Positions 15,746 to 62,346 of a DNA stretch of 64,000 nt are shown piece by piece. The position numbers and the translations under genes are program-made. Each line of letters begins with the position of its first letter. The stretch's first letter is position 1. The notes below the pieces were generated by a model. It made no database searches. It saw nothing but the letters and a program-made list of their open reading frames with translations, and had not been told where the DNA came from. The stretch spans positions 186,001-250,000 of the forward strand of contig NZ_FXUF01000002.1 of NCBI RefSeq assembly GCF_900182905.1. The letters are read 5' to 3'. The stretch is from Anoxynatronum buryatiense (GTDB taxonomy: Bacteria; Bacillota; Clostridia; Peptostreptococcales; Tindalliaceae).

Positions 15746-16251
15746 AAACGATTCAACTGACGGTTAACGGTAAAGAAATGACCCTGACAGTGGAGGCAGA
15801 TCAGCGATTGTTGGATGTGCTTCGCAATAATCTGAAGCTCACTGGCACCAAAGAAGGCTGTGGAGAAGGTGAATGTGGCGCCTGTACGGTAATCATGGAT
15901 GGGGCCATCGTCAATTCATGCCTGGTGATGGCGTTTCAGGCGGATGGGAAATCCATTCAAACCATCGAAGCCCTCGACAGTGAAGATGGATCACTGCATC
16001 CCATTCAGCAGGCTTTTCTGGAAGAAGGAGCCGTTCAATGCGGTTTTTGCACACCGGGAATGGTGCTTTCTGCCAAAGCATTGCTGGACAAAAACCCCAC
16101 TCCATCAAAAGCTGATATTCAGGAAGGTATTTCCGGAAATCTCTGCCGCTGCACTGGCTATCATAAAATTGTGGAAGCCGTTGAAAAGGCTGCCGACACC
16201 ATGAAAGAAGGGGGAGAGAGCCATGGCACTGCGCGTCGTGGGACAAAATGA
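15742..16251 (+). CDS. xdhC: Xanthine/nicotinate dehydrogenase-type [2Fe-2S] subunit
   Basis: A 169-residue iron-sulfur subunit with the two usual clusters: a plant-ferredoxin set C40, C45, C48, C60 (EGCGEGECGAC) and a helical-domain set C100, C103, C135, C137 (CGFC, CRC). Its length is standard. The ATG overlaps the stop of the FAD subunit, and its own end overlaps the next gene by 29 bases, indicating one tightly translated complex. Confidence 0.93.
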   Translation: MKTIQLTVNGKEMTLTVEADQRLLDVLRNNLKLTGTKEGCGEGECGACTVIMDGAIVNSCLVMAFQADGKSIQTIEALDSEDGSLHPIQQAFLEEGAVQCGFCTPGMVLSAKALLDKNPTPSKADIQEGISGNLCRCTGYHKIVEAVEKAADTMKEGGESHGTARRGTK

Positions 16252-17491
16252 AATCAGAGTGGATGGAAAGGCAAAGGTCACTGGAAAGGCCCTTTACCCT
16301 GAAGACATCTACATGGACAACATGGTATTTGGAAAAACCCTGCGTTCCAACCGCCCCCATGCTCATTTCACCCTGAATCTGGAACAGGCGTCTCAAATGC
16401 CGGGGGTGCTTCGCATCTTCACAGCATCAGACGTGCCTCATAATGCCCATGGCGTTCTTTTCAAAGATCATGAAGTGATCTGCAGGGATAAAGTACGGCG
16501 GGTGGGAGACCCCATGGCTTTTGTGGTGGCAGAAACAGAAAAAGAAGCCACTGCCGCTCGGGACGCCATTCAGGTGAGCTACGAAGATCTGCCAGCTGTC
16601 TTTGACCCTGAGGAGGCATTGAAGCCGGGAGCTCCATTGGTACATGAACAGGGAAATTTGGTTTATCGTTTCAAGTTGCGCCGTGGCGATGTGGCAGCAG
16701 GGTTCCAGGAGAGTCATGCCATTGTGGAACAGGAATACCGGACGCCCATGGTGGATCATGCCTTTCTTCAGCCAGAGTCAGGACTGGCCTACATGGAAGA
16801 AGATGAGCGGGTGGTGGTGTGCGCCGCCACCCAGTATCCCCATTTTGATCAGCTGGAAATAGCAGAAGCCCTGGCGCTTCCAACAGAACAGGTGAAAGTG
16901 GTGAATCCGGCGGTGGGTGGAGCCTTTGGCGGCCGGGAAGATGTGACCATGCAGATTCATTTGGCATTGGCGGCTCAACATCTGAAACGGCCGGTGAAGA
17001 CCACCTACAGCCGGGAAGAGTCTTTCTATGCTCACAGTAAACGGCATGCCATGGTGATGCGCCTGAAAACCGGCGCCGACAGAGAAGGCAACCTGCTGGC
17101 CACTCAGGTGACCATCTATTCAGATACTGGTGCTTATGCCTCCTGGGCCATTAATGTGTTGCGGAAAGCAGGGGTGCATGCCACCGGCCCCTATGTGATT
17201 CCCCATGTGCATGTGGACGGCTACAGCGCTTACACCAATAACCCCTATGCAGGAGCCATGCGGGGCTTTGGGGCGACACAGATTCCCATTGCCCATGAAA
17301 TGCAGATGGATGCACTGGCAGAGCTACTGGGGATCAGTCCCCTGGAAATTCGTTTGAAAAACGCCTTCGTACCAGGTTCTGTGACTGCCACAGGCCAAAC
17401 CCTCTCTGAAAGTGTACCGCTGGTGGAATGTTTGGAGGCGGTGGCAGAAAAATTGGGCTTGAAACAGAGTCTTCGGGAGGTGTCACCATGA
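16223..17491 (+). CDS. Molybdenum hydroxylase, N-terminal half of the Mo subunit (split, NdhL-like)
   Basis: A 422-residue protein equal to the first part of the usual ~760-residue xanthine dehydrogenase Mo subunit: the a/b hammerhead domain (GKAKVTGKALYPEDI) and the first molybdopterin-binding domain (NPAVGGAFGGRED, then AGAMRGFGATQ). It ends at a clean boundary and overlaps the second half by ATGA with a proper ribosome binding site, so the split is natural and not a frameshift. Nicotinate dehydrogenase of Eubacterium barkeri is known to have the same split (about 50 and 37 kDa). Xanthine is the likely substrate here from context; purine hydroxylase or nicotinate-like activity is possible. 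Confidence 0.88.
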   Translation: MALRVVGQNEIRVDGKAKVTGKALYPEDIYMDNMVFGKTLRSNRPHAHFTLNLEQASQMPGVLRIFTASDVPHNAHGVLFKDHEVICRDKVRRVGDPMAFVVAETEKEATAARDAIQVSYEDLPAVFDPEEALKPGAPLVHEQGNLVYRFKLRRGDVAAGFQESHAIVEQEYRTPMVDHAFLQPESGLAYMEEDERVVVCAATQYPHFDQLEIAEALALPTEQVKVVNPAVGGAFGGREDVTMQIHLALAAQHLKRPVKTTYSREESFYAHSKRHAMVMRLKTGADREGNLLATQVTIYSDTGAYASWAINVLRKAGVHATGPYVIPHVHVDGYSAYTNNPYAGAMRGFGATQIPIAHEMQMDALAELLGISPLEIRLKNAFVPGSVTATGQTLSESVPLVECLEAVAEKLGLKQSLREVSP

Positions 17492-18486
17492 AAAAAAAAG
17501 GAAAAGGGATAGGATGCACCTTTTATGGTACTGGCTATGGGAATGGTTTTCCGGATGTTTCCCGATCCATCGCCCAACTGGAACGGGATGGATCAGTGAC
17601 TGTTTACGTGGGGGCCACTGAGGTGGGACAGGGGGCCAAGACTGTCTTGAGTCAAATCGCTGCGGAAGTGATGGCGCTTCCCTTGTCGGGCATTCATTTC
17701 GTGTGTGAAAATACTGATGAAACCCCGGATGCAGGGACAGCAGCTGCCAGCCGCCAGACCTACAACACCGGTAATGCCATCAAACGCACTGCCGAATTAT
17801 TGCTCAAAGAAATGAAAGTAACGGCAGCCCGGCACTGGGGGGTATCAACACCCGGCCGTATTTCCATGGATTCAGGAAAGCTGGTTCATCCTGAAAATGC
17901 TGCTGCAACGCTCAGCTACCGGGAAGTTGCCATGATAAAGGGACAGGAACTGCTTCGGGTGGAAGACAGCTTCACCGCCATGACCACCCGGCTGGATGAT
18001 GAAACCGGTCAGGGAAACCCATACTGGCCCTATACCTTCAACGTATATGGTGTGGAAGTGGAAGTGGATACAGATACAGGTAAAGTCTCAGTGGTGAAAG
18101 CTGTCTGTGCCCAGGATGTGGGACGGGCCGTGAATCCCAAACTCATTGAAGGGCAGATGGATGGTGGATTTGCCATGGGGCTGGGGTATGCGCTGATGGA
18201 AGATGTGAACCTGCAGCAGGGCCATATGAAGCATGACCGCTATTCCAATTATCTGATTCCCACTGCCATGGATTTGCCCGACTTGGAAAAAATCATCGTG
18301 GAAGCGCCTGAATCCACCGCACCCTTCGGGGCAAAAGGGATTGGCGAGCCAGTGATGCTGGGGGTGGCGCCGGCTATTTTAAACGCCATCTATGACGCAG
18401 TTGGTGTTCGGATGACGGAGATTCCAGTGACGCCAGACCGGTTGCTGGTGGCACTCAAGCAACATGAGGGGAAGGAAGGGATCTGA
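17488..18486 (+). CDS. Molybdenum hydroxylase, C-terminal half of the Mo subunit (split, NdhM-like)
   Basis: A 332-residue protein equal to the second part of the Mo subunit, with the cofactor loop VGATEVGQGAKTVLSQIAAE and, near the end, GAKGIGEPVMLG, where the glutamate is the family's catalytic base. The start is ATG 17488, with GGGAGG 7 bases upstream inside the preceding gene; the in-frame codons further upstream (from 17428) are overlap only. It works with the preceding subunit as one catalytic unit. YqeC and MocA genes downstream suggest a labile-selenium molybdenum cofactor. Confidence 0.88.
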   Translation: MKKKGKGIGCTFYGTGYGNGFPDVSRSIAQLERDGSVTVYVGATEVGQGAKTVLSQIAAEVMALPLSGIHFVCENTDETPDAGTAAASRQTYNTGNAIKRTAELLLKEMKVTAARHWGVSTPGRISMDSGKLVHPENAAATLSYREVAMIKGQELLRVEDSFTAMTTRLDDETGQGNPYWPYTFNVYGVEVEVDTDTGKVSVVKAVCAQDVGRAVNPKLIEGQMDGGFAMGLGYALMEDVNLQQGHMKHDRYSNYLIPTAMDLPDLEKIIVEAPESTAPFGAKGIGEPVMLGVAPAILNAIYDAVGVRMTEIPVTPDRLLVALKQHEGKEGI

Positions 18487-23891: not shown

Positions 23892-25496
23892 CTACTCAAT
23901 GGATAAATCGCCCACCAGTACCCCGATAATTTCACCCGTGCCGGCCTTGATTGGAACAGCCAGTGAAACACAGTAGTGATAAGTGGCACTAGAGATATAG
24001 GGGTCTGTGACAAAATCACGCCCTGCGATGGCTTCAATAAAATATGGTCGATGACTGTATTCAAGGGGCTCATCAGGCAAATCAATGTTAGCGGCCACCA
24101 TCAGGCCGCTTTTTTCAATGAGTCCGATGTTTTCAAACTGAGCGTTTTTCATCTGAACCTCTTTCAGCAAAGGAGAAGCTTTGGAAAGTGGAAGTTGTTG
24201 CTTCGCCACCTGACCTGCTGTTTCTCTTAACACTTTAAAATCACCATCGATTCCTTTTCGCTGGTCTGCATTTAACTCAACATTTCCGATGAAAGTATTC
24301 AAATAGGCGTCGATGCTTTCCGCATCTTCGTGCATTCGGTGAATGCCTTCCATGACTTCGTGCATTAAAGAAGATTGTTCTTCTGCTGAAGCAGACACTT
24401 CCTGCGTAAAGGCAGCGGCATTTTCCGTACTGGCGGCAATGTGATCCATCAGCTGACTGGTGTGCTGGGACAGGTCGGCTGTATCGGAAGCCAGCAATTT
24501 TATGTCATTGACTGCAGAAAAAGTTTCCTGGGTGGAAGACAACACTTGTTGAAAAGAAGCTTTGGAGGCATCAGCAAAGGCAATGTCCTGAGCGGTTTTT
24601 TGGGCAGCGGCACCGGTGGAACCGGCAATTGTCTCGATGGAAGTCGTGATGCCGTCAATAAGGGTCTGAATTTCAGAAGTGGATGTTGCGGTTTGTTCTG
24701 CCAGTTTGCGCACTTCGTCTGCCACCACGGCAAACCCCCTCCCATGCTCACCGGCCCGGGCTGCCTCAATGGCCGCATTCAGCGCCAAGAGATTGGTGGT
24801 TTCGCTGATCCCGGAAACAACGGCAGAGATCTCATAAATACGACGGGCTTCCTGTTCCAGTGCAGTGATCTGATGAGTCACCTGCTGGTTTGCCGTTGCA
24901 TTTTCGTTCATTTTTTGAATAAGTGCTTCGAATACCTGACTGCTTTTCTCGACGATCTGAATCATCCCCTGGGCAGTCTGCAGCGTGGTTTCTGCATGCT
25001 GGTTGATGGCGTCAACTTTTTGAATCATATGGCTTGTTGTGGTGCGCGCCTCTTCCAGTGACTCGAACTGCTTGGAAGCGTTCTCTGCCACTTCATTGAT
25101 GGACACGGCAATTTCCTGGGAGGATTGCTGTGTTTGACGGATGTTGCTTTGCAGTTCATCAGACAAGACAAAGAGTTTTTGTGACATGGCGGCCATTTCA
25201 GATAGTATTTTTTTGGTGTTGAGGGACAACTGGTTAATGTTGCGGCTCAACTCCCGGGTGGTGCCAGTCCCTTTGATGCGGTGGGCTAACCGACCCTGGG
25301 TCAGCGGCTTGATTTCTTTCATGAGAAGCCGGGCTGCTTCATGCTGCTGCCGGTTAACTGCCAACAGCAGTAAAATTGTCAGGGAAGCAGTGCTGAGATT
25401 CAGCAGCGAACCTGGTTGCAACAGTAAAGTCGTGGCGAAGGCGATGAGGGCAATTAATGCGATGACCAGCAGGGGATTGATTTTTTTTCTCTCCAT
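23892..25496 (-). CDS. Methyl-accepting chemotaxis protein with C-terminal Cache-like domain
   Basis: A 534-residue chemoreceptor. Two membrane segments lie close together at the N-terminus (about 8-27 and 33-48) with almost no extracellular loop. A long coiled-coil signalling region follows with the conserved hairpin tip ([32 protein letters not shown] split over about 235-270). After it, residues 450-534 resemble a Cache/PDC sensor fold ([23 protein letters not shown], then [23 protein letters not shown]). The sensor would therefore be cytoplasmic and C-terminal. AAGGAGG precedes the start. Confidence 0.88.
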
Positions 25497-25836: not shown

Positions 25837-25865
25837 TTGACAGAAAGTGCCGATGGTGGTAAATT
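25837..25865 (+). promoter_or_regulatory. Sigma-A promoter of the peptide-type ABC transporter operon
   Basis: TTGACA (25837-25842), 17-base spacer, TAAATT (25860-25865), 51 bases before the start of the binding-protein gene. The rest of the AT-rich 25497-25916 gap, which separates this operon from the divergent chemoreceptor, contains no gene that I can support. Confidence 0.7.
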
Positions 25866-25916
25866 GGAATGAGCCTAGAGCTATGCATCAATGTATATAA
25901 ACAAAGGAGGAGTACT

Positions 25917-27602
25917 ATGAATTTAATGAAAAAGAGAATGTGGATTAGTTTACTGGTGGTGGGAGTGTTGTTGTTGACCGCTTGCGGCGGTGGAGGAGCA
26001 TCTGCCCCTGCTGCACCGACAGAGTCGGACATACCCGATGAGGAAATGGGTGAAATTGTTCCTTCCATCACACTGCTCAGTTCATTGCCGGAAGCCAACA
26101 TGGTGAACTATGAAATGGCCGAGGAAATTGCCGAAGAACTGCGCCTGCTGGGTGTGGACGCTGTGGCACAACCCATGGACTTTGCCGTATTGCTGGATGT
26201 TTTGTATGGAGAAGACAGTGATTTTGACGCTTACACCATTGGCTGGTCTGGCCGTGTGGAGCGCTTGGATCCTGACATGTTCATCCACTCCATTAATCAT
26301 TCCGATAATGCTGAACCAGGCGGGAACAACACCAACCGTTATCGAAATCCGGCATTTGATGCTCTGGCTGACGCCCAGCGTCAGGAAATGGACATCGACG
26401 CACGTCGTGAGATTGTGTTCGAAGCCCAGGAAATTCTTGGACAGGATGTACCACAGGTAACCCTGTACTCCAGAGCCAACATGCAGACATACAACAAGGA
26501 ATTATTTGCTGATGTCATCAATATCCCTGGTGAAGGTCTGTTTAACGAATGGACTCCCTTCTCCATCAGACCGCTGACAGACAAAACAGTACTTACAGTG
26601 GCCAGTAACGTCAATATTGACGACATTAACCCCTTAAGCTCAAAAAGTGTCTACGGATGGCGTAACCTGCGCCTTATCTACGATAAGCTGGTACGCTTGT
26701 CACCGGAAATCGAACCTGTACCATGGGCAGCTGTGGGCTGGGACGTGGTGGCTGATGACGTGATTGATGTTGAACTGCGCCAGGGAATGACTTTCCATGA
26801 CGGTGAGCCCGTGACCGTGGAAGATGTGAAGTTCTCCTACGAACTGTTTATCAACGAAAACGTGGAGTACTTTGCTTCCTTCCTGACACCCATCGACACC
26901 ATCGAAATCATGGATGAAAACACCGTGCGTTTCAACCTGAAATACGCTTACGCACCCTTTATCACCAACACATTGGCACAAATTCCCATTTTGCCCATGC
27001 ACATCTGGGAAGACATTGAAAACCCGGTACAATATCCCAACATGGAAGCCATTGGCAGTGGTCCCTTCAAAATGGAGCGTTTCCAAACGGGTGAAGAATT
27101 AGTGGTTTCCCGTTTTGATGACTATTTTGAACAACCCATCATCGATGGTTATATCTTCCAGATCTTTGCTTCACCTGAAGGCGTACTGACTGCTCTTGAA
27201 CTGGGTACTGTGGACATTGTTTCTTATGACCTGGTACCGGCTCACACCGAACAGATTTCCAACAATGAAGGTGGCAAGTATGATCACCTTGAGTTGACAG
27301 AAGCCCAAGACATTGGTTTCTTCTATCTGGGAATGAATCTTGACCGCGCACCTTTCAACAACAAGGCATTTCGTATTGCTGTGGCCCACGTCACAGACTA
27401 CGATCTGGCTCTGGATGTACACCTGAACGGTTACGGTGCCCGCGGCGGCGGCGGACTGGTGATTGTGGAAGCCAACGAGTTCTGGCATAATCCGGATGCC
27501 CTTATTTACGACACCTATGACCCAGAACGGGCCAGAGAAATCCTGGCAGAAGCCGGCTTTACCTGGGACAGCGAAGGCCGTCTGCGTATGCCGGTGGAAT
27601 AG
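25917..27602 (+). CDS. Family 5 solute-binding lipoprotein, apparently circularly permuted
   Basis: A 561-residue lipoprotein (signal peptide with lipobox LLTAC, lipidated C23) of the oligopeptide/dipeptide/nickel-binding SBP_bac_5 family. The segments are in an unusual order. Residues about 45-215 correspond to the normal C-terminal part (LGVDAVAQPMDF, GWSGRVERLDPDMF, NRYRNPAFDAL, then ARREIVFEAQEILGQDVPQ). Residues about 220-561 correspond to the normal N-terminal and middle parts (LTVASNVNIDDINPL, RQGMTFHDGEPVTVEDVKFS, AIGSGPFKMERF) and stop at YDPERAREILAEAG, the point where the C-terminal part normally follows. Start ATG 25917 after AAAGGAGG. Ligand unknown; permease and ATPase genes follow. 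Confidence 0.85.
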   Translation: MNLMKKRMWISLLVVGVLLLTACGGGGASAPAAPTESDIPDEEMGEIVPSITLLSSLPEANMVNYEMAEEIAEELRLLGVDAVAQPMDFAVLLDVLYGEDSDFDAYTIGWSGRVERLDPDMFIHSINHSDNAEPGGNNTNRYRNPAFDALADAQRQEMDIDARREIVFEAQEILGQDVPQVTLYSRANMQTYNKELFADVINIPGEGLFNEWTPFSIRPLTDKTVLTVASNVNIDDINPLSSKSVYGWRNLRLIYDKLVRLSPEIEPVPWAAVGWDVVADDVIDVELRQGMTFHDGEPVTVEDVKFSYELFINENVEYFASFLTPIDTIEIMDENTVRFNLKYAYAPFITNTLAQIPILPMHIWEDIENPVQYPNMEAIGSGPFKMERFQTGEELVVSRFDDYFEQPIIDGYIFQIFASPEGVLTALELGTVDIVSYDLVPAHTEQISNNEGGKYDHLELTEAQDIGFFYLGMNLDRAPFNNKAFRIAVAHVTDYDLALDVHLNGYGARGGGGLVIVEANEFWHNPDALIYDTYDPERAREILAEAGFTWDSEGRLRMPVE

Positions 27603-27708: not shown

Positions 27709-27764
27709 GGCATTACATGCATTTAAGCATTGAAAACCACGATAGAAAGAAGGAAGGTGAAAGC

Positions 27765-28736
27765 TTGTTAGGTTATTTTGCGAGACGTTTGGCAGTGATG
27801 CTGTTAATGATTTTTCTGGTTTCCACCATGATTTTTTTCCTGTTTCGCACCATGCCTGGTGATCCCACGGCCTTTGTGGTTGACCCGTCCATTCCAGCTG
27901 AAGCAAGGCAGCAGCTACTGGAGCGCTACGGGTTGCATGACAGCCTGTGGGTGCAATACCAGGTGTTTATGAAAGACCTGGTGAAACTTGATTTTGGCGA
28001 TTCTTTCTTTTACAATCGGCCAGCCATGGAAATCATCGGAGAAAAGCTGGCAGCCACGCTGATTCTCATGCTCACCGCCATGGTGTTTGCATATGTCATC
28101 GGTATTTTTGGAGGTGCCTGGATGGCTTGGAAACGGGGTACCCCACTGGAATCTGTGGGCATTACCATATCCCTCATCTTCCGGTCGGCACCCACCTTTT
28201 GGGTGGGGCTGATGGTGATTTTGCTATTTTCAGTACGTCTGGGCTGGTTCCCGGCGCAGGGGATGCGCACAGCTGGTACCGGCGGCGGCACATTCTCAGA
28301 AGTATTCTTAAACACAGACTTTCTTAAACACCTGGTGCTGCCTGCTCTGGTGGCCGGGTTATACTTTGTGGCAACACCCCTGCTGATTATGCGTAACAGC
28401 ATGCTGGAGGTTATGTCGGAAGACTACATTGAAATGGCCAGGGCCAAAGGCATCAAAGAGCGCATTATATTGTATCGCCACGCTGCCCGAAACGCCCTTT
28501 TGCCTGTTGTCACCGCTGGAGCCCTGTTCATTGGTTCTGCCATTGGCGGGCAGGTGCTGATCGAAGTGGTATTCAGCTGGCCGGGTTTGGGACGGGAAAT
28601 TGTTACGGCTGTTACCCGACACGACTATCCCCTGGCCCAGGGCTGCTTTATCATCATTTCTGCCATGGTTATGTTCATGAACCTGGTGGCAGACATGCTG
28701 TATGCAGTGCTTGATCCACGGATTTCATACAAATAA
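27765..28736 (+). CDS. Peptide-type ABC transporter permease (DppB/OppB family)
   Basis: A 323-residue membrane protein with six predicted membrane segments and the family's EAA loop (EVMSEDYIEMARAKGIKE, about residue 225). The first residues LGYFARRLAVMLLMIFL are typical of DppB. I chose TTG 27765, with GGAAGG 7 bases upstream, over the distant ATG 27717. It forms the translocation pore with the next gene. Confidence 0.9.
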   Translation: MLGYFARRLAVMLLMIFLVSTMIFFLFRTMPGDPTAFVVDPSIPAEARQQLLERYGLHDSLWVQYQVFMKDLVKLDFGDSFFYNRPAMEIIGEKLAATLILMLTAMVFAYVIGIFGGAWMAWKRGTPLESVGITISLIFRSAPTFWVGLMVILLFSVRLGWFPAQGMRTAGTGGGTFSEVFLNTDFLKHLVLPALVAGLYFVATPLLIMRNSMLEVMSEDYIEMARAKGIKERIILYRHAARNALLPVVTAGALFIGSAIGGQVLIEVVFSWPGLGREIVTAVTRHDYPLAQGCFIIISAMVMFMNLVADMLYAVLDPRISYK

Positions 28737-28757: not shown

Positions 28758-29654
28758 ATGAGTACGGCAACCCTTCATAAAAAAGCAAACAGCCAGAGCG
28801 TTATTCGGCTCTTTTTCAAAAATCTAAAACGGGATAAACTGGCCCTGATCGGCGTCGTGTTGCTGGTGTTTTTCATCGGCGTAGCTGCTTTTTCCGACAT
28901 CATTGCCCCTTATGGGCCCCGGGACAGACATTATAATGAAGATGGAAAAATCAGACGCCTTGAAGCTCCATCAGCGGCTCACCCCTTTGGAACCACCGAT
29001 GTGGGGCGTGATATATACTCTCAGGTGGTACTGGGAACCAAAACCGCATTGACGGTGGGGATCCTGGCAGCGCTGCTGGTTACCGTGGTGGGGTCCGTCG
29101 TGGGAATCATCGCAGGTTACTATGGTGGCTGGGTGGATACCGTCATCATGCGGGTGGTTGACTTTTTCTATGCCATTCCATTTATCCCCTTTGTCATTGT
29201 CCTGTCAGCAGTTCTGAAACCCAGCATCTGGAATATTATTTTGGCAGTTTCCCTGCTCTCTTGGCGAACAGTGGCACGTCTTGTGAGGTCACAGGTACTG
29301 TCCATTGCCAAAAGACCCTTTATCAAGGCAGCACGGGTGGCTGGTGCCAGCAATCCACGCATCATGTTTAAGTATGTTTTGCCCAATGTGGTGCCACTGA
29401 TCATGCTGGAGATGGCCTTTATGGTCAACTGGGCCATTGCAGCAGAAGCCAGCATTGCTTTCCTGGGGTTTGGTGACCCTACTGTGCCAAGCTGGGGCCA
29501 GATTCTCCACATCGTATTCACGACGGGTAACTCACGTGTGGCCTGGTGGTGGATCACCGCACCCGGTGTGGCTATTGTCTTACTGTTACTATCCATCTTC
29601 TTTGTGGCAAGAGCCCTGGAAGAAGTGGTTGATCCCAGATTAAGGAGGCGATAA
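28758..29654 (+). CDS. Peptide-type ABC transporter permease (DppC/OppC family)
   Basis: A 298-residue membrane protein with the DppC N-terminal domain (LFFKNLKRDKLALIGVVLL) and the core signature HPFGTTDVGRDIYSQVV, followed by five more membrane segments and the EAA loop (FIKAARVAGASNPRIMFKYVLPN). It pairs with the preceding permease. The start has AAGAGGTG upstream. Confidence 0.92.
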   Translation: MSTATLHKKANSQSVIRLFFKNLKRDKLALIGVVLLVFFIGVAAFSDIIAPYGPRDRHYNEDGKIRRLEAPSAAHPFGTTDVGRDIYSQVVLGTKTALTVGILAALLVTVVGSVVGIIAGYYGGWVDTVIMRVVDFFYAIPFIPFVIVLSAVLKPSIWNIILAVSLLSWRTVARLVRSQVLSIAKRPFIKAARVAGASNPRIMFKYVLPNVVPLIMLEMAFMVNWAIAAEASIAFLGFGDPTVPSWGQILHIVFTTGNSRVAWWWITAPGVAIVLLLLSIFFVARALEEVVDPRLRRR

Positions 29655-29656
29655 CC

Positions 29657-30703
29657 GTGACCCTGTTGGACGTTAAAAACGTAAGCATTGAATACACCAC
29701 TGAAGCCGGTGTGCTGAAAGCGGTGGACGACGTCTCCTTCAGCCTGGAAGTGGGCGAAAGCGTGGGCCTGGTTGGCGAAAGTGGCTGTGGCAAAACCACC
29801 CTGGCCAAATCCATCATGCGGTTACTGGCCAAAAACGGCAGCGTCAGCACCGGCCAAATGCTGTTCAAAGGTGAAGATTTGGTGACCAAATCTGATGAAG
29901 AAATTCGCCAGCTGCGGCTCAATGAAATCGCCATGGTGTCCCAAAGCGCCATGAACGCCCTGAATCCGGTGTATACCGTGGGAGATCAGCTGGTGGAAGG
30001 CATCATGACCCATACGAAAATGACAAAAAAAGAAGCCACTGACCGGGCCATCGAGGTATTTCGTATGGTGGGGCTGGAGGCCAAGCGTCTGAAAAGCTTT
30101 CCCCATCAGATGAGCGGCGGAATGAAGCAACGGGCCATTATTGCCATGGCCTTAACGTTGAATCCATCTCTCATCATTGCCGATGAACCCACCACCGCCC
30201 TGGATGTGGTCGTGCAGGACAGGATACTGCAACAGATCATACAGATTCAGAAAGAAATCAACAGCTCCATGATCCTCATTACCCACGATATTTCCGTTGT
30301 TTCTGAAACCTGCGAAACCATCATTGTCATGTATGGTGGTAAAGTCATGGAAAAAGCACCCACCCGGATCTTCTTCAAAACCCCGGCACACCCCTATTCT
30401 TTGGGGCTGAACAATGCATTTCCCAGCATTCATGAAATTGGCGAAGAGCTGATCTCCATCCCCGGCGCACCGCCAAACCTGATGGATGAACAGAATGGCT
30501 GCCGGTTCCAGGAGCGCTGCCCCTTTAAGACAGAGACCTGCGAAACCAAGGTACCTGAACTGGAAGAAGTGGCGCCGGGTCATTTTTCGGCCTGTCATTA
30601 CAATGATCAAGTAGAATCTTTCCGGGAAGCCTGCAAAAAGAGGGAAACCTGGGAACTGGTGCGGGATCGCATGATTGAAGAGAGAAAGCGGGGTGTGTCG
30701 TAA
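29657..30703 (+). CDS. Peptide-type ABC transporter ATPase (DppD/OppD family)
   Basis: A 348-residue ATPase: Walker A GESGCGKTT (about residue 38), signature QMSGGMKQR, Walker B LIIADEPTTALD and the C-terminal oligopeptide extension with Cys residues (CRFQERCPFKTETC) of the OppD/DppD class, which may bind an FeS cluster. It starts with GTG 29657, 2 bases after the permease stop, with AGGAGG upstream. Confidence 0.93.
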   Translation: MTLLDVKNVSIEYTTEAGVLKAVDDVSFSLEVGESVGLVGESGCGKTTLAKSIMRLLAKNGSVSTGQMLFKGEDLVTKSDEEIRQLRLNEIAMVSQSAMNALNPVYTVGDQLVEGIMTHTKMTKKEATDRAIEVFRMVGLEAKRLKSFPHQMSGGMKQRAIIAMALTLNPSLIIADEPTTALDVVVQDRILQQIIQIQKEINSSMILITHDISVVSETCETIIVMYGGKVMEKAPTRIFFKTPAHPYSLGLNNAFPSIHEIGEELISIPGAPPNLMDEQNGCRFQERCPFKTETCETKVPELEEVAPGHFSACHYNDQVESFREACKKRETWELVRDRMIEERKRGVS

Positions 30704-31719
30704 TGGGAACACCTTTGATACAGATCAAGGATCTGAAAAAGTACTATCCGGTGAACAAGGGTTTGAAGGACATGTTCAGCAAAGAAAAAGTATTTGTCAA
30801 AGCCATTGATGGGATTGACTTGACCATTCATAAAGGGGAAATCCTGGGACTGGCCGGTGAAAGCGGCTCTGGTAAAACCACGACAGGTGAAATTCTGGTG
30901 CGCCTTCAGGATGCCACCGAGGGCAGCATCACCATCGACGGACATCCTCTGGATGTGAAGGATGGAAAACTGAAAAAAAGCTTCCGCAAGGAAGTGCAGA
31001 TGATCTTTCAGGATCCCTACGAAACCCTAAATCCCCGGTTCAATGTCTTCGACACCATTGCCGAACCCCTGCGGATTCATGGCCTTCGGGATAAAAAGGT
31101 CTTGTATGAAAAAGTGATAAAAGTGCTGGAAATTGCTGAGTTGAAACCGGCAGAGCATTTTATCTTCCGTTATCCCCACGAATTGTCCGGTGGTCAGCGT
31201 CAGCGGGTGGCCATTGCCCGGGGCATTGTGGTGGAGCCGAAGGTACTGGTGGCAGATGAGCCCGTATCCATGCTGGATGTATCCATCCGGGCTGATATTC
31301 TCAATCTCCTGAAACGGTTGCGTCAGGATATGGGCCTTACCATGCTGTATGTATCCCACGACCTTTCCACCATCAAATACCTGTGCGACCGCATTGCCAT
31401 CATGTACCTTGGAAAAATCATGGAAATTGGCCCCGTGGACGAAGTCGTGGCCAACCCCCGGCATCCTTACACCCAGGTGTTACTGTCTGCAGTGCCGGTG
31501 GCTGATCCTGACTATCAGAAAGAACGGATCATCATTGATGATGAGGCACCGGATCAGATCAATCTGCCGGTTGGCTGTCGGTTCAGCCCCCGGTGTCCCT
31601 TTGCCCAGGAAGCCTGCACACGCTGCGATCACAGCTTCACTCAGGTGGGCGAAGACCACTATCATGCCTGCATTTTTGAAAAAGAAGCCTTGAAACCCCG
31701 GGGAAGCTCATCCGTTTAA
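30703..31719 (+). CDS. Peptide-type ABC transporter ATPase (DppF/OppF family)
   Basis: A 338-residue ATPase: Walker A GESGSGKTT, signature ELSGGQRQR, Walker B VLVADEPVSMLD and the C-terminal Cys extension CRFSPRCPFAQEAC. The ATG overlaps the stop of the partner ATPase (TAATG). Together the two ATPases drive the importer. Confidence 0.93.
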   Translation: MGTPLIQIKDLKKYYPVNKGLKDMFSKEKVFVKAIDGIDLTIHKGEILGLAGESGSGKTTTGEILVRLQDATEGSITIDGHPLDVKDGKLKKSFRKEVQMIFQDPYETLNPRFNVFDTIAEPLRIHGLRDKKVLYEKVIKVLEIAELKPAEHFIFRYPHELSGGQRQRVAIARGIVVEPKVLVADEPVSMLDVSIRADILNLLKRLRQDMGLTMLYVSHDLSTIKYLCDRIAIMYLGKIMEIGPVDEVVANPRHPYTQVLLSAVPVADPDYQKERIIIDDEAPDQINLPVGCRFSPRCPFAQEACTRCDHSFTQVGEDHYHACIFEKEALKPRGSSSV

Positions 31720-31995: not shown

Positions 31996-34176
31996 ATGAT
32001 TACACGTCAAATTAACCCGCAAACCCTGTGGTTGACCTTTGGAACCCCTTTTGAGACAGAAAGCCTTATGTTTGACAGGGAGCAGACAACATTGCTGAAA
32101 AAAACACCGTCACTGCCGGTGAAGCTATCCCTTGAAAATGATCGATTGCAGTTAACAGACTCGTTGTCAGACGATACCAGGGTATTGGGACTGGGGGAAA
32201 ACTTGCGGGGAATGAACAAACGGGGCGGTATTTACGAATCCTTTTGCACCGATGACCCCATCCATACCCCCGGCAAAAAATCCCTGTATGGTGCTCATAA
32301 TTTTCTGCTGGTGGAGGGTGCAGTGCCCTATGGAATATTTATTGACTATCCGGGGAAAGTGATTTACGATATCGGATATACCAGGCATGATCAACTGATT
32401 ATTACCATCACCGGGAGTGATGTGGATATTTACCTGTTTCAGGAGGGAAATCTCAAGGAATTGGCACTTGCCTTCAGGAGGCTCATGGGTGAAAGTTACA
32501 TACCTCCCAAATGGGCTTTTGGATTTCAACAGTCCCGGTGGAGTTACCGAACCAGCAAAGAAGTGGAAGCGGTGGCAGCGGCTTTTCTGGAAAATGAGAT
32601 CCCATGCGATGCCATTTATCTGGATATTGACTACATGGAACGCTATAAGGACTTTACAGTTGACAAGGAAGCTTTTCCCGATTTTCCCGGATTGGTGGCC
32701 TCTCTGAAAGAAAAAGGATTTCGACTCATCCCCATTATCGATGCGGGTGTCAAAATCGAAACAGACTACCCTGTTTACGAAGAAGGCAAAGATCGGGGTT
32801 ACTTTTGCCTCAATCGCAAAGATGAGCCTTTTGTGGCCGCGGTGTGGCCAGGCAAGGTCCATTTTCCGGATTTTTTGAACCCGGAAGCCCGCCGCTGGTT
32901 TGGACTGCACTATCAGTTTCTGACAGACCAGGGTATCGAAGGATTTTGGAATGATATGAACGAACCATCCATTTTTTACACAGAAGAGCGGTTGCAGCAG
33001 GCCATTGACCTGGCAAAGGATAGTGAAGGACAAAATCTGGATATTGATGCATTTTTCCATCTCACCGACACTTTTAAAGCATTGTTTAATCATCCTGATG
33101 ATTATAAACAAATGTATCACCAGGTAAAGGGCGAGATGGTGAATCACGCCAAAATCCACAATCTTTATGGATTCAATATGACTCGGTCGGCTGCAGAAGG
33201 ACTGGCAGAACTGGAGCCAAATAAGCGTTTTCTACTCTTTTCAAGAGCTTCCACTGTGGGTCAGGGGCGTTATGCCGGCATCTGGACCGGGGATAACCAT
33301 TCATGGTGGGAGCATATTTTGCTAAACCTTCAAATGATGCCCGCCGTGAATCAGTGTGGTATCCTTTATACAGGCGCTGATACCGGCGGTTTCAGTGACA
33401 ATGCCAATGCCCAGCTGATGATTCGATGGAGTCAGTTCAGTCTTTTCACACCTCTGTTTCGCAATCATGCGGCCCTTCACACCCGGCACCAGGAGCCTTA
33501 TGCCTTTGATGGAGCTTCGACAGCCATATTGAGGGATGTGATTCGCTTAAGGTATGCCTTGATTCCCTACTTATACAGCGAATACATGAAAGCAGCTAAA
33601 AAAAGCGGGCTCTTTTTCATGCCCCTCTCTTTCGAGTATTCCGAAGAACAGGCCGCCTTAACTGATGACCAGCTGCTGGTGGGAGAGTCTCTGATGGCAA
33701 CGCCCGTTTACCGGGAAAATGCCAGGGGAAGACATGTCTACCTGCCTGAAACCATGCTTCTCTGGAAAGCAACAGGACCAGCGGGCGGTCAACTTGAAGT
33801 GGTGCCACAAGGGCACCATTATCTAAAGGCTGATTTGGCAGAAACCCTGATATTTCTTCGGAAAAACAGGATACTGGTATTGGGAGAGCCGGCCATGAGT
33901 GTGGAAAAAATGGATCTCTCCACCATGAGGGTACTGGCTTTTGTGGACGATACTGCCAGCTATGTGCTCTATGACGATGACGGACTCACCCATCATCACC
34001 GGGAAGGTGCTTACACTGAAATTCACCTGACCATCACCCACAAAGCAGGAGATTTTCAGGTGAAGGTGGCAGCATCATCCCATGTCAAAGTCAAAGTGCT
34101 GAAACTGGTGATGATTAATGCGGCAGGAAAGCAACAGGAACAAGTCGTCCAGGTAGTGCCAGATGCTGCCAACTAA
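31996..34176 (+). CDS. Glycoside hydrolase family 31 alpha-glucosidase
   Basis: A 726-residue GH31 enzyme without a signal peptide, so cytoplasmic. The catalytic nucleophile is D320 in WNDMNEPSIF and the acid/base is D433 in IWTGDNHSWWEH. Residues 1-150 form the N-terminal beta domain (GLGENLRGMNKRG, then FLLVEG), and the last 130 are beta-rich. It hydrolyses alpha-linked glucosides such as maltose or isomaltose; the exact linkage cannot be read. It has an AGAGGAGG site and no sugar transporter nearby. Confidence 0.92.
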   Translation: MITRQINPQTLWLTFGTPFETESLMFDREQTTLLKKTPSLPVKLSLENDRLQLTDSLSDDTRVLGLGENLRGMNKRGGIYESFCTDDPIHTPGKKSLYGAHNFLLVEGAVPYGIFIDYPGKVIYDIGYTRHDQLIITITGSDVDIYLFQEGNLKELALAFRRLMGESYIPPKWAFGFQQSRWSYRTSKEVEAVAAAFLENEIPCDAIYLDIDYMERYKDFTVDKEAFPDFPGLVASLKEKGFRLIPIIDAGVKIETDYPVYEEGKDRGYFCLNRKDEPFVAAVWPGKVHFPDFLNPEARRWFGLHYQFLTDQGIEGFWNDMNEPSIFYTEERLQQAIDLAKDSEGQNLDIDAFFHLTDTFKALFNHPDDYKQMYHQVKGEMVNHAKIHNLYGFNMTRSAAEGLAELEPNKRFLLFSRASTVGQGRYAGIWTGDNHSWWEHILLNLQMMPAVNQCGILYTGADTGGFSDNANAQLMIRWSQFSLFTPLFRNHAALHTRHQEPYAFDGASTAILRDVIRLRYALIPYLYSEYMKAAKKSGLFFMPLSFEYSEEQAALTDDQLLVGESLMATPVYRENARGRHVYLPETMLLWKATGPAGGQLEVVPQGHHYLKADLAETLIFLRKNRILVLGEPAMSVEKMDLSTMRVLAFVDDTASYVLYDDDGLTHHHREGAYTEIHLTITHKAGDFQVKVAASSHVKVKVLKLVMINAAGKQQEQVVQVVPDAAN

Positions 34177-49330: not shown

Positions 49331-49364
49331 AACTCCCTCGAGCTGAAAATGCAGAAAGGGAGTT
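49331..49364 (-). terminator. Intrinsic terminator in the tupB leader (riboswitch platform)
   Basis: On the minus strand AACTCCCT (49364-49357) pairs with AGGGAGTT (49338-49331) and is followed by TTTTT. It stands between the aptamer and the gene, as in an OFF-type riboswitch. Confidence 0.78.
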
Positions 49365-49367
49365 TTG

Positions 49368-49495
49368 GTGACTTTTCGGCTCCTTTCCACAGTGGGAGGC
49401 ATCGCTGTTTCCGGCAATACCTTAATGGTTTTTGGTCATGGCGCTGTGCGCGGTAGACGCAAAAACTCGGAGACTTAAGCATTGGTCAGTGATAA
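49368..49495 (-). ncRNA. Probable Moco/Tuco riboswitch aptamer
   Basis: The leader read on the minus strand contains GCCTCCC, GGAAAGGAGCCGAAAAG and CATGACC segments that recall the molybdenum-cofactor RNA motif. It sits between a strong promoter and a terminator ahead of a tungstate/molybdate transporter, the usual place for this element. I recognise it from partial sequence memory and context; a covariance search is needed to confirm the folding. Confidence 0.6.
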
Positions 49496-62196: not shown

Positions 62197-62213
62197 TAAA
62201 AGGCACAAATGAA

Positions 62214-62298
62214 AACGGGGAGCTGAGACAGACTCGGCTGAGAGGGAACTATTCTGTTCCGACCCGCAACCTGATCTGGATAATGCCAGCGGAGGGAT
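62214..62298 (+). ncRNA. TPP riboswitch (THI element)
   Basis: The conserved parts are present: GGCTGAGAGGG (62237-62247), GACCC, then ACCTGATCTGGATAATGCCA followed by GCGGAGGGA (62269-62297). It senses thiamine pyrophosphate and, with the downstream terminator, should turn off the ThiY gene when thiamine is plentiful. Confidence 0.95.
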
Positions 62299-62312
62299 CA
62301 ATAAAATCATTG

Positions 62313-62346
62313 AAACCCTGTAACCGCTGTGGCTACGGGTTTTTTT
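62313..62346 (+). terminator. Terminator of the TPP riboswitch
   Basis: AAACCC and GTA (62313-62322) pair with TAC and GGGTTT (62334-62342), followed by a run of T. It is the likely expression platform. Confidence 0.82.

Follow-up and report, generated by a model that had tools for sequence, protein, structure and literature searches.

The solute-binding proteins of cluster C include DppA, OppA, AppA, NikA and GsiB. The protein described here, P0001 of Anoxynatronum buryatiense, resembles them in its PF00496 homology, its predicted fold, its exported leader, and its DppBCDF-type operon, and differs from them in the rotated order of its segments, in a loop insertion, and in its new chain ends, which would fall in lobe II. 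The family is common: among the matches listed, 71 of the 81 genomes sampled from the phylum have an SBP_bac_5 match. Betaine-binding proteins of the OpuAC/ProX type have also been described as mutually permuted. Among open-licence PMC papers we found no report of permutation in SBP_bac_5 proteins, and the closest natural precedent that we found belongs to another solute-binding protein cluster: TpMglB-2 (Tp0684) of Treponema pallidum, a circularly permuted glucose-binding lipoprotein of cluster B (PMC4990184). That report places relatives of the same form mostly in treponemes and Gram-positives. P0001 and TpMglB-2 are alike in being natural circular permutations of an ABC solute-binding lipoprotein, whereas TpMglB-2 is a cluster B protein with strands from near the N-terminus of MglB lying near its C-terminus (PMC4990184) and P0001 is a family-5 protein cut at a different site. 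P0001 has a circularly permuted topology with a cut site unlike that of TpMglB-2, and it shows no MglB-type sugar-binding homology, PF00496 being the sole Pfam family found on it at E-values up to 0.001. To the precedent of TpMglB-2, P0001 adds a second solute-binding protein cluster.

The gene for P0001 lies in the window, by which we mean the whole stretch of 64,000 nucleotides of A. buryatiense DNA that was analyzed. The features of the gene and of the operon that it heads are listed below.

25837..25865, plus strand: promoter-like site TTGACA-17-TAAATT (consensus scan)
25903..25912, plus strand: ribosome-binding site AAAGGAGGAG ahead of the ATG at 25917 (read in the sequence)
25917..27602, plus strand: P0001, circularly permuted SBP_bac_5 lipoprotein of 561 amino acids (Pfam, phmmer, order test, AlphaFold2)
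25917..25985, plus strand: putative signal peptide and lipobox LLTAC, with Cys23 expected to be acylated (sequence pattern)
26058..26564, plus strand: module B, residues 48-216, equivalent to the C-terminal third of usual-order members (Pfam 288-366; fold match)
26241..26276, plus strand: binding-loop motif GWSGRVERLDPD, including the insertion characteristic of the permuted clade (loop motif count)
26565..26585, plus strand: junction where the natural C-terminus is fused to the natural N-terminus, at about residues 217-223 (phmmer, VIA-align)
26583..27584, plus strand: module A, residues 223-556, equivalent to the N-terminal two thirds of usual-order members (Pfam 1-287; model against 1xoc)
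27717..28736, plus strand: DppB-type permease (Pfam BPD_transp_1; also 3' of the permuted gene in relatives)
28758..29654, plus strand: DppC-type permease (Pfam BPD_transp_1, OppC_N)
29657..30703, plus strand: DppD-type ATPase (Pfam ABC_tran, oligo_HPY)
30703..31719, plus strand: DppF-type ATPase (Pfam ABC_tran, oligo_HPY)

P0001 is a real, conserved, and functional-looking circular permutant, and its permutation is supported by its sequence, by fold prediction together with solved folds, and by a large clade of proteins with the same order. Our main reading, to which we assign a probability of about 0.88, is that P0001 is a family-5 (cluster C) solute-binding protein that has undergone natural circular permutation, retains the usual clamp, feeds a DppBCDF importer, and belongs to a single horizontally spread clade.

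An earlier, sequence-only reading of this DNA had proposed that the usual C-terminal third comes first after the lipobox, that every family segment is present once in rotated order, and that the junction lies near residue 218. Profile alignment agrees on all of these points. PF00496 matches P0001 in two stretches with a score of 215.6 bits against a cut-off of 32.4, and in a whole-genome profile scan positions 288-366 of the 368-position profile fall at 26067-26312 of the window, upstream of positions 1-287 at 26712-27587. The profile is thereby covered once and nearly completely, with its segments rotated rather than in the usual N-to-C order. By itself, the smaller piece scores 23.7 bits, which is below the cut-off (E = 5.1e-5), and profile tools read rotated members of the family as two fragments. 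The same order was obtained with phmmer in the two alignments listed, against AppA (1xoc) and 5u4o, where residues 283-549 or 225-549 of P0001 align to the N-terminal parts and residues 58-188 or 63-180 align to the C-terminal parts. Thus, the usual-order alignment that had been named as an outcome speaking against permutation appeared with neither tool, and the natural ends are joined at about residues 217-223. Since eight other SBP_bac_5 genes of the A. buryatiense genome each give a usual-order, one-piece match to PF00496, the search itself does not produce the rotation. On contig C6, the same genome has another rotated gene, with profile positions 277-365 upstream of positions 2-285. No NCBIfam equivalog model matches P0001 at its own cut-off, the best being Opp4A with 122.8 of 650.

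The reading frame of P0001 is intact from the ATG at 25917, as had been claimed, and its leader is lipoprotein-like by sequence pattern. The transporter genes said to follow it form a complete set, of the DppB, C, D, and F types by Pfam. A promoter of its own, which had also been proposed, is only weakly suggested by the single 10/12 match at 25837-25865 from the consensus scan; this site must be set against a background of 13 promoter-like matches in its region, compared with a mean of 8.2 in shuffled sequences.

Structure prediction had been suggested as a check on the rotation, and the two pieces of P0001 fit complementary parts of solved family-5 chains. AlphaFold2, supplied with an alignment of 55 rotated sequences, gave a model of P0001 with a pLDDT of 92.9 and a pTM of 0.87. 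Comparison by VIA-align of residues 218-561 of the model with 1xoc residues 18-358 gave a Z score of 25.9 (rmsd 5.1, 332 residues), and comparison with 1uqw residues 3-326 gave a Z score of 24.1 (rmsd 2.4, 317 residues), so that this part of the model corresponds to family-5 chains from near the N-terminus to about residue 330-400. When modelled on its own (pLDDT 86.2 in AlphaFold2), module B matches 1xoc residues 356-520 with a middling Z score of 8.8 (rmsd 5.4, 163 residues), and its 50 listed matches, which by title are family-5 solute-binding proteins, fall at the C-terminal third, about residues 320-560. The two pieces match 1xoc ranges that complement each other, and the cut falls at about residue 357. 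The predicted models therefore have the cluster C fold, and module B would pack in its usual place, judging from the pLDDT and pTM values and the two partial matches.

Sequence, fold prediction, and conservation show that the natural C-terminus is joined to the natural N-terminus and the chain reopened in the loop that follows the helix of ..AREILAEAG, such that the usual C-terminal third now comes first. P0001 would fold as the same two-lobed clamp, hold its ligand between the lobes, and hand it to the DppBCDF-type importer that is encoded directly 3'. Domain III of OppA presumably spans about residues 271-486, which would put the new ends of P0001 in lobe II and the fused natural ends in lobe I. 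Given these positions, we infer that the lipid tether has switched lobes, and the anchor would be attached to lobe II, the counterpart of domain III of OppA, instead of lobe I. P0001 is thus predicted to be, most likely, a normal binding protein of a Dpp-type importer with its anchor on the other lobe. The rotated clade offers a natural test of how lipid-anchor position affects docking of the binding protein on the permease; if the prediction is true, nature has already run the tether-position experiment on Dpp-type importers.

The search for relatives of the same order revealed a widespread subfamily and not one odd gene. A pattern scan of genome contigs retained the best 80 of 556 relatives, ratios among which are not frequencies. 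In a two-HMM order test, from which open reading frames shorter than 300 residues or with less than 40 bits for module A were dropped, these best 80 of 556 comprise 42 rotated, 36 usual-order, and two undecided loci, the latter being L067, which starts near a contig end, and L107, which has no module B match. The cut site is that of the window gene in 41 of the 42 and a different one in L103. Loci L042 and L073 each carry a rotated gene together with a usual-order gene. The rotated loci among the best 80 of 556 come from Bacillota, Spirochaetota, Pseudomonadota, other phyla, and haloarchaea, and isolates with a rotated gene include Alkaliphilus peptidifermentans, Alkalispirochaeta alkalica, Halomonas-group species, Dethiosulfatibacter aminovorans, Paracoccus sp., and haloarchaea; the rotated genes of Actinomycetota, Deinococcota, and CSSED10-310 are from metagenome bins only. 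Counting A. buryatiense itself, a rotated gene was found in 6 of 60 genomes at E 1e-30 and in 8 of 398 genomes of the phylum at E 1e-60, one of the eight (L121, in genome G268) being broken by an internal stop. By eye, L121 (contig C27 of G268) contains module B and the start of module A followed in the same frame by ABC-ATPase-like sequence, and the wider match is interrupted by a TGA, which would fit a deletion that joined the binding-protein and ATPase genes.

By comparison of their sequences, the window-type rotated proteins form one clade with one cut site. For the trees, modules were first restored to the usual order, and usual-order rows were collected by similarity to the rotated query. 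In an unrooted tree of 120 rows, built without identical rows, L103, L121, and L126, and without L005, L067, and L107 (no module B match), one branch with an SH-aLRT of 99 parts 56 rotated from 64 usual-order rows. The same was seen in an unrooted tree of 57 thinned rows, 20 of them rotated (UFBoot 100, SH-aLRT 99, and 100% of 200 bootstrap trees), from which rows sharing at least 62% identity with a retained row and at most six rows on long branches were also left out; L046 was excluded from A2 and A3. A tree from module A only has the same single split, and a tree from module B only is poorly resolved, with two changes. Since the clade occurs in many phyla and in haloarchaea, its distribution implies horizontal transfer.

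The rotated clade is also marked by its binding loop. An insertion with an arginine is found in 54 of 56 rotated rows, the exceptions being haloarchaeal L068 and L074, and in none of 62 usual-order rows (two usual-order rows lacking the loop residues were omitted), where the loop reads GW-SGR(V/I)(E/D)R-xDP without an insertion. In DppA and OppA, the usual loop carries the acidic residue to which the amino group of the peptide binds, so the rotated proteins may bind something other than a plain peptide. In the 56 rotated rows, module B begins 28-88 residues past the script-picked start and the chain ends at most 16 residues from the end of module A. A lipobox pattern is present in 31 of them; judged by pattern and eye, haloarchaeal leaders are twin-arginine-like and most proteobacterial ones are ordinary signal peptides.

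A second subfamily contains two further rotated family-5 proteins, L103 and L166. Like P0001 they are rotated, and the chain of L166 is opened in the loop where the window family is cut; they differ from the P0001 clade in forming a separate lineage that includes usual-order L094 and in lacking the loop insertion. L103, from a Syntrophomonadaceae bin, has a leader, then profile positions 210-366, then positions 2-209 (order A2-B-A1). Its modules are 64-69% identical to L094, with which its leader also aligns, and per module it is 64-83% identical to L094, L165, and L168, all of usual order. L166, from the 99% complete genome G428, has the order leader-B-A1-A2 (profile positions 281-365 upstream of 2-278) and is 74-78% identical to L165 and L168, with which it groups (100/99) in a 15-row tree, built without L098 and L104, that places L103 outside. 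Given these supported branches, the order has changed twice in this subfamily; alternatively, one rotation followed by a reversion may account for L103 and L166.

Both genes start at contig ends, and their rotated parts and the permease genes that follow lie inside single contigs (the genes after L166 were judged by eye). No long repeat shared by the L103 and L166 contig ends was found. The end of contig C27 of G428 overlaps C8 by 28-29 bases, with a one-base difference in an A run, and C8 supplies an in-frame start codon. With the L103 protein as query, no second case of its rotation was found in 398 and 299 genomes at E 1e-75: the search was passed by 4 of the 398 and by 3 of the 299, L103's own genome being among the 299, and the other passers were G269 and G250 (usual order), G428 (the L166 type), and G411 (only one piece).

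With two further rotations in the second subfamily, permutation recurs. We consider it probable that family-5 solute-binding proteins are permutation-prone, with at least three events (the window clade, L166 in G428, and L103 in G456), two of them at the same lobe-II loop, and that one event founded a subfamily that crosses phyla and the boundary between bacteria and archaea, its tether moving from lobe I to lobe II while its transporter partners were kept. Tandem duplication followed by loss of the outer parts, the origin suggested in the sequence-only reading, is plausible for P0001, and rotations beside usual-order kin of 64-83% identity fit it. The expected intermediate did not appear among open reading frames of at least 300 residues in L001-L127, where only split hits of one module were seen, and G269, considered as a candidate intermediate, proved to be a plain usual-order gene (L165). 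The close usual-order kin of the second subfamily might let the steps of permutation be traced, and rotated binding proteins are ready permuted scaffolds for biosensors.

The transporter partners of the rotated proteins are conserved. Using tblastn (E 1e-15) with DppB, DppC, DppD, and DppF of the window as queries and a range of 9 kb, we found matches to all four 3' of the rotated gene at 32 of the 34 main-clade loci that extend at least 4 kb downstream. The exceptions are L043, which lacks the two ATPases downstream, and L068, whose set is 4.8 kb away with one ATPase in reach. The window gene itself heads an operon with OppBC/DppBC permeases and two oligo_HPY ATPases. No DppB was found in the 1.5 kb downstream of L115 and L116 (one copy each in G111 and G064), which by eye have transporter-like open reading frames upstream instead, and no DppB or permease match was found in the 1.5 kb downstream of the C6 paralogue.

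In Halomonas- and spirochaete-type loci, the DppC partner carries about 340 extra residues between its first transmembrane segment and the permease core (L051:10596-12329, L045:10637-12310, L053:10921-12657), with weak beta-propeller-like matches to PF14870 and PF23366; a shifted start of the DppC match suggests the same extra part in L045-L049, L051-L054, and L057-L060. At L051:12329-14635, both Dpp ATPases are fused into one protein of 769 residues with two ABC_tran and two oligo_HPY stretches. At L128:4960-9287 (contig C6 of A. buryatiense, G000), the second permuted binding protein is followed by a Cache-GGDEF-EAL gene, possibly as a ligand-sensing pair.

Other explanations of P0001 can be weighed against these data. 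The probability that the junction near residue 218 is an assembly artefact, the other outcome named as speaking against permutation, is negligible, for the junction is conserved in independent genomes. Four of these (G003, G004, G058, and G011) have proteins of the same order at 81-84% identity that are colinear over their full length, and both a 36% identical relative in G032 and the 42% identical paralogue on contig C6 are colinear across the junction, as are 41 loci of the same type among the best 80 of 556 relatives. In addition, tblastn with P0001 at E 1e-30 matches 31 plasmid records, 21 of which contain a single region that spans at least 80% of the query. All five copies inspected among the 31 records, on circular plasmids of Alphaproteobacteria and haloarchaea, are rotated, are adjoined by annotated transporter genes, and are annotated as 'ABC transporter substrate-binding protein'. 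Misassembly is ruled out by the independent genomes, the paralogue, and the circular plasmid records, and a chance rotated match is ruled out by the 56 distinct rotated sequences of this order. Given its conservation in many bacteria and in salt-loving archaea, the rotated form is real and long established. Only slightly less remote is the idea that the rotated order came first and the usual order arose from it. The unrooted trees leave room for it, in that a branch sets the permuted rows apart and no root is placed; against it, the Pfam profile and the matched solved members are in the usual order, and the permuted L166 of the second subfamily is nested within usual-order rows.

A true rotation also has to be distinguished from a fusion that brought in the first third of P0001 from a different family-5 gene, an option weighed by the authors for TpMglB-2 (PMC4990184) and one that we regard as unlikely here. 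Distances calculated from 14 of the 56 permuted rows give L019 and L122 as the nearest usual-order rows by module A, whereas by module B L122 is only twelfth and L019 is outside the first 14. Nevertheless, L003, which shares a subgroup with L019 and L122 in the joint tree, is third nearest by module B, and the module B scores of this subgroup, 66-82 bits, are in the upper range of usual-order proteins. Moreover, as both modules of L103, in the second subfamily, are 64-69% identical to one and the same usual-order protein, L094, true rotation does happen. It is less likely still that P0001 is mainly a signal receptor, presenting its ligand to a chemoreceptor or c-di-GMP protein, and not a transport protein. 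Such a role would suit the divergent methyl-accepting chemotaxis gene at 23892-25496 and the C6 paralogue, which is followed by the Cache-GGDEF-EAL gene and not by a nearby DppB, but it sits poorly with the full DppBCDF set that the window gene heads and that is conserved in 32 of 34 loci.

Guilt by association suggests that the ligand is probably an amino-acid derivative that is no plain L-peptide, such as a gamma-glutamyl, cyclised, or D-amino-acid compound. L062 is neighboured by genes for a sigma-54 activator, a creatininase, and two gamma-glutamyltranspeptidases, homologues of which cluster in L063 and L064, and an alanine racemase gene is found in G032. In G003 (L132:357-5727), prdC, prdA, and prdB, all scoring above their cut-offs, are located directly 5' of the permuted operon together with a prdA/prdD-like gene. 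Four separate plasmid records have, respectively, a gamma-glutamylcyclotransferase; two creatininases and an M20 hydrolase; four hydantoinase/oxoprolinase genes; and dipeptide epimerases with D-aminoacylases. L068 has a mandelate-racemase-type gene and an IclR regulator. This theme of amino-acid derivatives with gamma, cyclic, or D linkages is suggestive only, since such genes are missing at the window, within 9 kb of the Nitratireductor copy, and among the scanned neighbours of L038, L045, L049, L053, and L058, which are unrelated to it.

Two further candidates for ligand clues were considered in the window. The 3' neighbour of the operon is an alpha-glucosidase-like gene (at 31996, 726 aa; 402.7 bits, below the cut-off of 800), and the 16-kb stretches that surround the rotated genes of G003 and G011 contain no open reading frame of that size. 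Xanthine dehydrogenase and adenine deaminase genes at 14-20 kb are separated from the binding-protein gene by five open reading frames. For these reasons, neither was adopted as a clue.

The window contains other features of note. The divergent chemotaxis protein (23892-25496, minus strand) has its MCP signalling domain (residues 199-340) ahead of a dCache match (residues 390-533), which is the reverse of the usual order. The molybdenum subunit of xanthine dehydrogenase is encoded as two adjacent open reading frames, 16223-17491 and 17428-18486, split near profile positions 406-433, and apparently also in this form in Alkaliphilus peptidifermentans (L036:3818-6017). Two riboswitches score above the Rfam gathering score: a molybdenum-cofactor riboswitch at 49364-49484 on the minus strand and a TPP riboswitch at 62206-62314 on the plus strand.
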